Assembly: GCF_002088935.1 (NCBI RefSeq)
Contig: NZ_NCSS01000006.1
Coordinates: 1,520,407 to 1,584,406 of the forward strand
DNA: 64,000 nucleotides
From: Henriciella litoralis
GTDB lineage: Bacteria; Pseudomonadota; Alphaproteobacteria; Caulobacterales; Hyphomonadaceae
Direction of reading: 5' to 3'
How positions within the stretch are numbered: position 1 is the stretch's first letter; the number at the start of each line of letters is the position of its first letter. Of this stretch, positions 61,881 through 63,488 are shown piece after piece. The translations under genes and the position numbers were made by a program. Under the pieces are notes generated by a model. It was not told where the DNA came from and made no database searches. It saw nothing but the letters and a program-made list of their open reading frames with translations.

Positions 61881-62759
61881 TTGGCTCCCGACATATCTGA
61901 GTTCTCATACGGATTCGCCTTAACCAACGAACTGGTAGATCGTTACGGCGATTTGCGCTTTGCACCCATCTTTCCGTCACTGCTTGAGGAGGGCAAACCA
62001 GGGGGCGGATACGATTTACAGATTGGCGGTCCAACCTTTCCGATATTTGTCCAATTCAAGCTCTCTCACAAAATGATGACGAGACGCGCGAAAGAAATAT
62101 CAAGATACAAACTACCCATTATTCCGCCCTTCTTTCGGTTTTCAATAATGGATTCTCGGCACTCCAAGCAGCATGAAATGCTGCTTTCATTGGAGAATGC
62201 TGGGAATGAAGTGTTCTATGCCGCTCCACGCTTTCATACTCATGAAGAACTGAATGCAGCTTTCAACAAGAACTCGGTAAGTGCTGATTCAACTTTCGTG
62301 CGCCCCTCCACGATCGGACATCTAACGCCCGGATCGCACACGTGCGCGATTGATCATTCGACTATTCACATTTGCTCAGAACCATTCTCGGCAGAGGGGC
62401 TGAGCGTTCAAGATCTACGAAATTCCATAACCGGCAAACTGGACGAGAACTTGTTGCGGTTCGGTCCGGACCTCACCGAATTCCTGCTTGACCGATACCA
62501 GCGCGCTTCTGAACGAATCGAAGATTCCGAGAACAAAGCTTTAATGGCGTACGATCAGTATATTGAGACTTACATGTACGGTCGGTTTCAGACTACCGGT
62601 CAACCCGCGCGCCCGATTGGTCTCCGATACAGAGAACTAGTCAGCTCTCTTTCCGAAAAGGTATCCTTGGCGGAAGGAACATTCGAAAAGATTTCAAAGC
62701 TATCGGAATTCTCTACCAACATATTCGGAGCGCAACTTTTTGTCGTACAACGAAAATAG
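61881..62759 (+). CDS. AT-rich protein with a Mrr-like D...QxK nuclease signature
   Basis: 292 residues from TTG 61881. Near the N-terminus GGGYDLQIGGPTFPIFVQFK has Asp45, then Gln58-x-Lys60 at the end of a strand, preceded by Glu17 in a helix; this is the layout of PD-(D/E)xK nucleases with a Q variant, as in Mrr. FFRFSIMDSRHSKQHEMLLS and VFYAAPRFHTHEELNAAF are conserved-looking. Codon use is more AT-rich than argG. It may be a nuclease or defence-related gene; I recall the QFKL family as unnamed. No partner gene is visible. Confidence 0.6.
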   Translation: MAPDISEFSYGFALTNELVDRYGDLRFAPIFPSLLEEGKPGGGYDLQIGGPTFPIFVQFKLSHKMMTRRAKEISRYKLPIIPPFFRFSIMDSRHSKQHEMLLSLENAGNEVFYAAPRFHTHEELNAAFNKNSVSADSTFVRPSTIGHLTPGSHTCAIDHSTIHICSEPFSAEGLSVQDLRNSITGKLDENLLRFGPDLTEFLLDRYQRASERIEDSENKALMAYDQYIETYMYGRFQTTGQPARPIGLRYRELVSSLSEKVSLAEGTFEKISKLSEFSTNIFGAQLFVVQRK

Positions 62760-62813: not shown

Positions 62814-62842
62814 TTGACACCCCCCAACGCCGCCTGCTATCT
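62814..62842 (+). promoter_or_regulatory. Sigma-70-type promoter of the leader transcript
   Basis: TTGACA at 62814-62819, 17-bp spacer, CTATCT at 62837-62842. Transcription would begin about 62849, 2-4 nt before the leader ATG, as in other near-leaderless attenuation leaders of alphaproteobacteria. Confidence 0.6.
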
Positions 62843-62851
62843 CCCGCGCCC

Positions 62852-62890
62852 ATGTTCAATATGACGCTCTATTATTGTAGCTGCTCCTAG
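62852..62890 (+). CDS. Putative leader peptide MFNMTLYYCSCS
   Basis: 12 codons ending in TAG. Tyr-Tyr-Cys-Ser-Cys-Ser near the stop is the kind of codon cluster seen in amino-acid attenuation leaders, here for Tyr, Cys or Ser. It starts right behind a promoter and is followed by structured RNA. A simple terminator with a U-run is not visible, so the mechanism is open. Confidence 0.5.
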   Translation: MFNMTLYYCSCS

Positions 62891-62972
62891 CAGACTGACG
62901 CGCCGGCCTTAGCCTGCGTGACCAGAGCCTTATTGTCTTAAAAACTCACAATCGATCGCTGACGCCTCATCC

Positions 62973-63067
62973 GGGCTGCTCGCTCCCAACCGCGCTGTAA
63001 ACGCGGCCCCGTTCACCAAGACCGGGAGTGGCCACGGTGAGAGGTTTGATTCCTCGGCAGCCCACCA
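62973..63067 (+). ncRNA. tRNA-like structured RNA with encoded CCA
   Basis: Acceptor-like GGGCTGC (62973-62979) pairs fully with GCAGCCC (63057-63063), followed by ACCA. An anticodon-like arm CCGCG-CTGTAAA-CGCGG (62990-63006) has the loop of tRNA-Tyr (GTA). A T-arm-like AGAGG-TTTGATT-CCTCG follows. A normal D-arm is missing; GCTCCC (62982-62987) instead pairs with GGGAGT (63024-63029). It may be a decayed tRNA, an unusual tRNA or a regulatory mimic. Confidence 0.4.
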
Positions 63068-63110: not shown

Positions 63111-63488
63111 ATGCGATACCTACGTTTCGAAAGTCAGGTGCCCTATGAGGGCGCTTCCAGCCGTCTTGGCATCTTCCAGATTGCGTACCGTCTGCGCGAC
63201 GCCGATGACACGCGCGTGCACGACGCCAATGAAATTGCCCGGCTGCTCCTATGGCTAAAAACCCACCTTCATGCCCCCGAAGAGCTGAGCCTTGACGCCA
63301 ATAAGCGCGCGATATGCTGGTTCAAGTCCGCCGCGCATGAGCCGATGAAGCGGATGTGGCATCTGAAGGCCATTGTCGAGGTCTATGGCTACTGGATCAG
63401 CGTCAAGAAAACGCGGGAGCCGGGCCTCATCATCTATGAGGATGGCTGGCAGGTCGCGGCGATCCCACGCACTCGTAGGCCCAATTAA
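63111..63488 (+). CDS. Conserved hypothetical protein
   Basis: 125 residues. SRLGIFQIAYRLRDADDT, RAICWFKSAAHEPMKRMW and PGLIIYEDGWQVAAIP look like a conserved small soluble family that I have no name for. Weak ribosome site. It follows the leader/tRNA-like region by 43 bp and is probably controlled by it. Confidence 0.75.
   Translation: MRYLRFESQVPYEGASSRLGIFQIAYRLRDADDTRVHDANEIARLLLWLKTHLHAPEELSLDANKRAICWFKSAAHEPMKRMWHLKAIVEVYGYWISVKKTREPGLIIYEDGWQVAAIPRTRRPN

Follow-up and report, generated by a model that had tools for sequence, protein, structure and literature searches.

A tRNA-like element lacking a D-arm at the usual place, found behind a tyrosine-codon leader in Henriciella litoralis, probably belongs to a rearranged tRNA class shared by bacteria and phages

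A 64,000-nucleotide (nt) stretch of the Henriciella litoralis genome (contig NZ_NCSS01000006.1, positions 1,520,407 to 1,584,406 of the forward strand; hereafter the window) carries, at positions 62973-63067 of its plus strand, an element with an acceptor stem, a tyrosine anticodon and an encoded CCA end, in which no D-arm stands between the acceptor and the anticodon arm. This locus raises the question of whether such an RNA is a tRNA, an imitation of a tRNA that controls a neighbouring gene, or a relic. The explanation that we favour, and to which we give better than even chances as a whole, is that it is a rearranged tRNA-Tyr (Tyr type) placed under the control of a leader peptide and serving as a reserve tRNA.

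The element opens with the 5' strand of the acceptor stem, GGGCTGC(T) (62973-62980), which pairs with (G)GCAGCCC (63056-63063), and it closes with the discriminator base A73 (63064) and CCA (63065-63067). Between these lie, in order, the 5' strand of a helix named P (GCTCCC, 62982-62987), the anticodon arm CCGCG-CTGTAAA-CGCGG (62990-63006) with the anticodon GUA at 62997-62999, the 5' strand of a helix named Q (CCGT, 63009-63012), a segment (63024-63037) that comprises the 3' strand of P (GGGAGT, 63024-63029), two D-loop-like G residues (63030-63031) and the 3' strand of Q (ACGG, 63034-63037), and finally the T-arm GAGG-TTTGATT-CCTC (63041-63055). Only 9 nt separate the acceptor stem from the anticodon arm, and they take part in helix P, whose other strand lies 3' of that arm. 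The parts named in the first-pass annotation, made from the sequence alone, stand where it placed them and are correct in nearly every detail; of its 7-base-pair (bp) acceptor stem the stem itself stood while the length did not, since an eighth pair covaries in the relatives, and the acceptor/T branch is therefore read as 8+4 bp.

Folding of the single sequence gave a z-score of -1.55, with 15 of 200 shuffled sequences equally stable, and the case for the element therefore rests on its relatives. The same holds for the earlier argument that the tRNA marks are too many for chance: it is carried by conservation across relatives, the single fold being weak. ARAGORN called no tRNA at the element, and Rfam returned nothing at the gathering score for it and the 12 loci tested. 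At a lax Rfam threshold the sole match of the window element was tRNA-Sec (RF01852; 20.5 bits, the gathering score being 47), with which it shares a long acceptor stem and a similar total length, and from which it differs in the missing D-arm and the GUA anticodon; this identity was rejected for its weak score, as were minus-strand matches. An intact D-arm shifted to the 3' side of the anticodon arm was another candidate; its strands (ACCG/CGGT) can pair in the window, though by eye not in the relatives, and the combination of P and Q took its place.

A DNA search of 101 genomes with the window element found clear copies in two genomes (G010 and G017) and weaker ones in two others (G015 and G028), all of one genus. 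A covariance model built from eight copies (R1, cut at 45 bits) was run on 105 genomes of the family and found 15 elements above the cut in 13 genomes of three genera, the next matches scoring at most 32 bits and being mostly of ordinary tRNA size. A second model, R2, was built from 15 bacterial copies only (the window element, one of its training sequences, scores 91.1 bits). It added two copies from a different family of the same order (398 genomes searched, 14 matched, 12 of these already known) and one in another order (two of 385 genomes, one being the window's own), with nothing further in 299 genomes of the phylum and no added copy in a closer look at 28 genomes of one genus. The bacterial total is 18 elements in 16 genomes; the genome samples overlap, and the searches of more than 40 genomes used stricter filters, which may miss weak copies. 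One of the copies, in G139 (L110, 3858-3944, minus strand), is of Tyr type with the non-standard T-loop GGCAGTA and stands next to a tRNA-Gln gene; it has a different upstream peptide and lies behind a gene that is rpoH-like by eye.

The bacterial copies comprise two types: GUA is joined to A73 in all 10 copies of the Tyr type, and GCA to U73 in all seven copies of the Cys type. Among the 42 tRNAs found in the host, one ordinary gene is for tRNA-Tyr, with A73, and one for tRNA-Cys, with U73. Both types stand side by side in G010 and G017.

The fold is also present in viruses. Viral contigs were scanned for patterns and the hits were scored with R2; two of the scans required the loop CTGTAAA and one was anticodon-neutral. 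Because R2 was trained on bacterial copies only, the viral matches are independent finds. The first of them (L122) lies in a tRNA cluster, and the only Tyr tRNA in its stretch has the rearranged fold. Altogether at least 181 viral elements, at least 142 of them distinct, were collected from at least 179 loci between L122 and L556, counts that are lower bounds and not rates. The first CTGTAAA scan (at least 120 loci) gave 56 matches, the second at least 89 matches in at least 89 new loci (38.1-80.3 bits, two of them cut by a contig end), and the anticodon-neutral scan 33 matches in 31 of 89 new loci. R2 scores ranged from 52 to 72 bits in an initial group of phage elements, with other R2 matches in the same loci at 30.1 bits or less, and, among the matches listed, from 36.8 to 80.3 over the sets described here. 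Among the matches listed, the anticodons are GUA (165), UCU (10), UAU (4) and ACG (2), Tyr being over-represented because two scans asked for CTGTAAA. The same listed matches end in CCA in 155 of 181 cases, are called by ARAGORN in one of 181, and share their locus with at least three ordinary tRNAs in 145 of 179; no other tRNA-Tyr was called in the stretch examined for 151 of the 165 Tyr elements, and one was for the remaining 14. A viral scan for the Cys type returned none, and a broader TTGCAAA scan of at least 120 loci, 80 of which were scored with R2, gave a single match (L304), not of Cys type.

Two named phages have the fold, each in an unannotated copy: Rhizobium phage RHph_N3_2 (39882-39970; locus L364) and Pseudomonas phage Rembedalsseter (44629-44716; found separately and outside the 181). 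Most queries with viral copies against the phage collection had no match, and the window element itself, as a nucleotide query against plasmids and phages, gave nothing beyond short matches at chance level. The grammar scanner passes some class II tRNAs and undercounts because it demands a 4-bp T-stem; the final counts therefore use the model. Two scanner matches, one with UCA and one with UGU, were judged spurious. Left out of the 181, below the cut, were a UCU copy (L487, 33.0 bits) and six identical UAU (Ile) elements (L468, L506, L518, L527, L544 and L550), which have the fold by the scanner, reach only 31.8 bits with R2 and possibly form a further subgroup. Four viral Tyr elements with a related arrangement and a shorter front linker were left out as well (L151, L159 and L137 at 27-29.5 bits; L204 without a match). 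A tRNA-Tyr-like sequence in the tRNA cluster of Aeromonas phage 25 (L455, 2974-3064; NC_008208.1, about 64497-64587) is not annotated as a tRNA, its site being covered by a hypothetical open reading frame (ORF); it was rejected, having by eye the usual arm order and only 21.5 bits. Other observations on viral contigs are a tandem pair of rearranged tRNAs of Arg type, one with ACG and one with UCU (L542, 6418-6592, minus strand), and a transfer-messenger RNA next to a tRNA cluster (L186, 4727-5082, minus strand).

The comparison with relatives proposed in the first-pass annotation, which had held that a lack of compensatory changes would speak against a structured RNA, brought such changes out throughout the fold. 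A mixed alignment of 38 bacterial and viral elements, fitted to the model, has standard pairs in 98.2% of its pair cells, and both partners vary in 22 of its 23 pairs; it reaches a covariation score of 0.766, where shuffles give 0.20 and slid partners no more than 0.183. Changes on both sides affect all eight acceptor pairs (98.0% of cells paired), all five pairs of the anticodon stem and all six model pairs of P (whose model columns lie one base further in), so that the replacement of the D-arm by GCTCCC/GGGAGT, as first described, is borne out. The resulting architecture has an 8-bp acceptor stem, a 4-bp T-stem (pair counts from this alignment), a 5-bp anticodon stem and a 6-bp helix P with one strand before and the other behind the anticodon arm. 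Among the matches listed, 75 distinct viral copies are 96.4% paired, and both partners vary in 19 of 23 pairs, the outer T-stem pair being missing in 41 of the 75 (the branch is often 8+3); for 15 distinct matches from loci with mainly other isotypes, the values are 97.4% and 14 of 23.

Helix Q was assessed by swapping whole partner segments among elements, which needs no column-by-column pairing. Not one of 1000 such shuffles scored as high as the true partners for P, Q, the anticodon stem or the acceptor; for Q the cognate value is 4.24, against a shuffled mean of 3.28 and a maximum of 3.69. The strands of Q vary yet match (CCGT/ACGG, CCCT/AGGG, CCTT/AAGG, TGCTGTA/TACAGCG, GCCAA/TTGGC and others), and in several copies Q is weak (three to four pairs). 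Since its 5' strand comes just after the anticodon arm and its 3' strand after P (in nearly all copies behind the GG), Q crosses P as a pseudoknot. These alignments support a tRNA-related structured RNA with P as a replacement helix. The 3' half of a D-arm (one stem strand and the GG for T-loop docking) would lie behind the anticodon arm, so that P, resembling a D-stem, encloses that arm, and Q would replace the variable region.

The view that the element no longer has a function, as a decaying relic of a tRNA or a mobile-element attachment site, fits its patchy occurrence (13 of 105 family genomes) and the degraded copies in G004 and G022, which have acceptor mismatches and a leader that was not found or has lost its start, and probably that in G124. 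Strong compensatory change and the kept pairing of anticodon and discriminator contradict it, and in 12 of the 13 loci of the window's family argG is found no more than about 2 kb upstream, which marks the locus as stable and not as an insertion target and was the ground for rejecting attachment or insertion; we hold the relic as a whole to be very improbable. The occurrence of one fold in bacteria and in phage clusters, with covariation in the mixed alignment, argues instead that the element is probably a member of a rearranged tRNA class and not only a regulatory mimic.

In the bacteria the RNA stands behind a short leader. The mini-ORF of the window encodes MFNMTLYYCSCS followed by a stop (62852-62890, plus strand; ATG TTC AAT ATG ACG CTC TAT TAT TGT AGC TGC TCC TAG), with the two Tyr codons already pointed out in the earlier annotation at 62870-62875 and Cys codons at 62876-62878 and 62882-62884. 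A likely promoter was recognised by eye before it (62814-62843: TTGACA at 62814-62819, an 18-nt spacer and TATCTC at 62838-62843); a consensus promoter scan of the window did not list this pair. At about -35 of the ATG, TTGACA occurs in eight of 12 leaders, TTGACT in two and neither in two, a position that would put the transcript start on the ATG or beside it. A corresponding mini-ORF of nine to 12 codons plus stop is present at 12 bacterial loci, with its ATG 107-121 nt before the RNA at ten of them and 237 nt (G020) and 315 nt (G019) before a Cys-type RNA at the others. Besides that of the window, the peptides are MIHMTLYYCCS, MINMTLYYCCCS, MRNRTLHHYYCT, MMNSTLFYYCCT, MTLMTLYYCCC, MTKPLHTCCCL, MFNMQLYYCS, MFNKPLYYCT, MTLTLYYYS, MNNQLYYLS and MHALIYYYCS. 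Adjacent Tyr codons occur in 11 of the 12; the exception, MTKPLHTCCCL, with three Cys codons, belongs to G020, which has the Cys type only. Loci with the Tyr type only (G575, G536 and G360) have leaders with LYYYS, LYYLS and YYYCS. Leaders at Cys-type loci contain 2, 3, 3 and 3 Cys codons and the other eight 2, 1, 1, 2, 1, 0, 0 and 1, the loci being related.

Phage loci were searched for an ATG-started Tyr-Tyr mini-ORF within 120 nt upstream, the RNA standing away from the preceding tRNA. Among the matches listed, such leaders precede nine of 104 rearranged tRNA-Tyr and 13 of 976 control tRNAs (p 9e-5, the loci not being independent); an earlier partial set gave, among the matches listed, eight of 81 versus five of 661, or with GTG and TTG starts 11 of 81 versus 18 of 661. 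In RHph_N3_2 and the viral contigs L125, L236 and L451, only 3 to 5 nt separate the last of the Tyr codons from the tRNA. On this sequence comparison, we regard the phage ORFs as a second setting of the match between codon and anticodon.

Attenuators of the trp/his type consist of a short ORF in which codons for the relevant amino acid cluster, followed by hairpins that can pair in alternative ways, and in some alphaproteobacteria trpL has a leaderless start. The locus resembles them in the clustered matching codons, in the predicted start at or near the ATG and in the hairpins and putative alternative pairing downstream of the mini-ORF; it differs in that the product is a tRNA and not a biosynthetic operon, and in that the window has no clear terminator. 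The pairing in question is a long-range helix, H3, in the minimum-energy fold (62857-62935), in which CAATA (62857-62861) and GCTCT (62866-62870) pair with TATTG (62931-62935) and AGAGC (62924-62928), enclosing a hairpin over the Cys codons and stop (62878-62897) and a second hairpin (62899-62920). Running from the beginning of the leader to a segment beyond its hairpins, H3 changes its sequence between loci and keeps its pairing (CAATA/TATTG, CAACA/TGTTG, GACAAAG/CTTTGTC, GCACGC/GCGTGC), with at least five pairs at 11 of 12 loci. Partner shuffles scored as high in 14 of 2000 trials for the 12 related loci and in one of 2000 for eight diverse loci, the shuffled mean being already 5.0. With moderate confidence we take H3 to be a real long-range helix.

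The best reading is that translation of the leader controls the Tyr or Cys tRNA. The tRNA would share a transcript with the mini-ORF, which would itself be nearly leaderless and has Tyr (and Cys) codons corresponding to the anticodons that follow, and the leader probably gauges the supply of charged tRNA-Tyr or tRNA-Cys. A ribosome that occupies the Tyr codons would mask or hinder the 5' strand of H3, so that its position would decide whether H3 closes and hence how much tRNA is made; stalling for want of charged tRNA-Tyr or tRNA-Cys would most likely raise the output. Control in the opposite direction, in which fast reading of the leader lets H3 form and prevents termination, so that an ample supply of charged tRNA-Tyr turns on production of the tRNA, draws on G575 and G536, where the 3' strand of H3 overlaps a terminator-like hairpin (AGCC...GGCTTTTT) and a ribosome stalled on the 5' strand would favour termination. 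That hairpin is short and was not flagged by the terminator scan, a scan of the window listed none such and none is clear there by eye, and such control makes little sense for a reserve tRNA; we give it little credence.

The regulated product could also be a protein. In the window an ORF for a protein of 125 amino acids (aa) follows the element (63111-63488, plus strand); eight of the 12 leader loci have it, each of them carrying either a Tyr-type element or that of G124, and in G575 it begins 12 bases after CCA. On this evidence the uncut RNA might act in cis, binding the tyrosyl- or cysteinyl-tRNA synthetase or the ribosome and controlling this gene in the manner of the thrS operator or a T-box, a form of the regulatory tRNA mimic that the first-pass annotation had put forward. 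We do not prefer the mimic, and consider it unlikely, if slightly less so than the opposite direction of control. At four of the 12 loci (G010, G019, G020 and G360) RNA and leader persist although a search for the gene there found none; A73 and U73 are kept according to type; and the fold recurs with several anticodons among ordinary tRNAs in phage clusters. These three points favour the tRNA itself as the controlled product. The genes further downstream in the window do not look synthetase-like either, as judged by eye with no search made.

The 125-aa protein is best treated as a neighbour rather than a proven part of the system. Its relatives range from Hyphomicrobiaceae to Clostridia, and it was matched in three of 289 genomes of the class, the window's own included. 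Pfam, PADLOC and NCBIfam offer no family for it, PHROGs gave weak matches only, and there is one short match among viral sequences. Its predicted fold is confident (predicted local distance difference test, pLDDT, 89) and has no significant match in the PDB (best E 0.18). As a key to the locus it was rejected for this lack of a family and a fold match. Between argG and the leader of the window lies a further ORF, of 292 aa (61881-62759), which has no family match; in G017, G015 and G028 the gap between argG and leader is too short for it.

A charged RNA could in principle serve as the donor for a non-ribosomal reaction, such as the addition of Tyr or Cys to a peptide, and would not then decode. 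The juxtaposition of both types in G010 and G017 and the leader peptides ending in Tyr/Cys clusters are compatible with this; among the three window proteins searched, though, only ArgG has a family, the 125-aa protein has neither a family nor a solved fold, and the phage copies include Arg and Ile by anticodon, all of which makes such a role improbable. From the discriminator bases and the place in phage clusters, chiefly, we infer that the RNA would be excised from its transcript, aminoacylated with Tyr (or Cys) and used in decoding on the ribosome.

Compared with canonical tRNA-Tyr and tRNA-Cys (RF00005), the element has the acceptor, the T-arm, the anticodon arm with U33 and A37, the encoded CCA, an AGTGG motif and the joining of GUA with A73 or GCA with U73 in common; its T-loop is TTCRANY-like (G139 differs), and its anticodon arm has a 5-bp stem and a 7-nt loop with U33 (C33 in G124). 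It departs from them in the 8-bp acceptor, the absence of a D-arm before the anticodon arm, P around that arm and the pseudoknot Q, and it scores below the RF00005 gathering score. There is also a likeness in outline to Allo-tRNAs, described in the available part of a review (PMC7609411) as 8/4 or 9/3 tRNAs with odd anticodons including UAU and a D-arm before the anticodon arm, irregular ones lying in polycistrons and one near a transposon-related gene. The element shares the 12-bp acceptor/T branch in its 8/4 form and differs from what is described there in the nesting of the anticodon arm in P and in the pseudoknot; its Tyr and Cys discriminators would argue against an identity for seryl-tRNA synthetase like that of Allo-tRNA. 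As far as the available part of the tRNAscan-SE 2.0 paper goes, D-armless mitochondrial tRNAs and permuted archaeal genes are mentioned, and the rearranged fold is not among them. The literature covered holds no description of the fold or of a leader-controlled tRNA gene, which is weak evidence, as preprints and most subscription papers lay outside its scope.

Why a cell should keep a reserve tRNA with an altered body is suggested by defence systems that attack tRNA-Tyr. According to the available parts of these reports, retron-Eco7 depletes tRNA-Tyr (PMC11555353), Septu cuts its variable loop (PMC13096335), and the resistance of phage T5 tRNA-Tyr is ascribed to its variable loop (PMC11555353, PMC13096335). 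The viral elements resemble these cases as Tyr tRNAs on phages with a possible anti-defence role; the phage tRNA-Tyr described there has a D-stem, anticodon arm, variable loop and T-stem, while the whole variable region of the element is rebuilt. Under the proposal, the locus would supply Tyr (or Cys) tRNA as a reserve, with a changed body that may escape enzymes attacking ordinary tRNAs, this escape being the last and least supported step of the proposal.

Several observations weigh against the favoured explanation. The minimum-energy fold of the window element alone lacks the anticodon arm and differs from the proposed structure. The copy in G124 is mixed and probably decayed: it follows a YY leader, has a CCGCAAA loop (C33) together with A73, and ends in TCA. 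G019 has the Cys type only, yet its leader reads YYCCC; a repeat stands where the Tyr type would be, and we infer that this type was lost. Cys codons also occur in leaders of loci without the Cys type (the window, G128, G015, G028, G124 and G360), and G021 keeps an intact Cys copy despite a lost leader start. Support for H3 is moderate, with only four pairs in G019, and through the overlap in G575 and G536 stalling would there switch expression off. Septu, according to the available part of its report, also cuts the tRNA-Tyr of phage T6 (PMC13096335), so that a phage-borne origin alone is not protective, and nothing links the host to Septu or a retron.

We nevertheless take the element to be, probably, a tRNA wired differently. 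The broadest form of the proposal is a tentative one, which we rate as possible but rather doubtful: a second tRNA architecture for Tyr, Arg, Ile and Cys, present in many phages and some bacteria, which would be competent in translation, missed by ARAGORN and maintained because nucleases directed at ordinary tRNAs fail to recognise it, and would in bacteria provide a self-correcting emergency supply induced by stalling at the matching leader codons. To our knowledge, a tRNA gene under leader-peptide control would be a new regulatory circuit. If confirmed, these findings would mean that the cloverleaf is not the sole tRNA solution of phages and bacteria and that phage tRNA counts are too low, for Tyr above all. 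They would also provide naturally occurring tRNAs whose elbow and variable region are rebuilt, with which recognition by synthetases, EF-Tu, the ribosome and tRNA-cutting defences may be studied.
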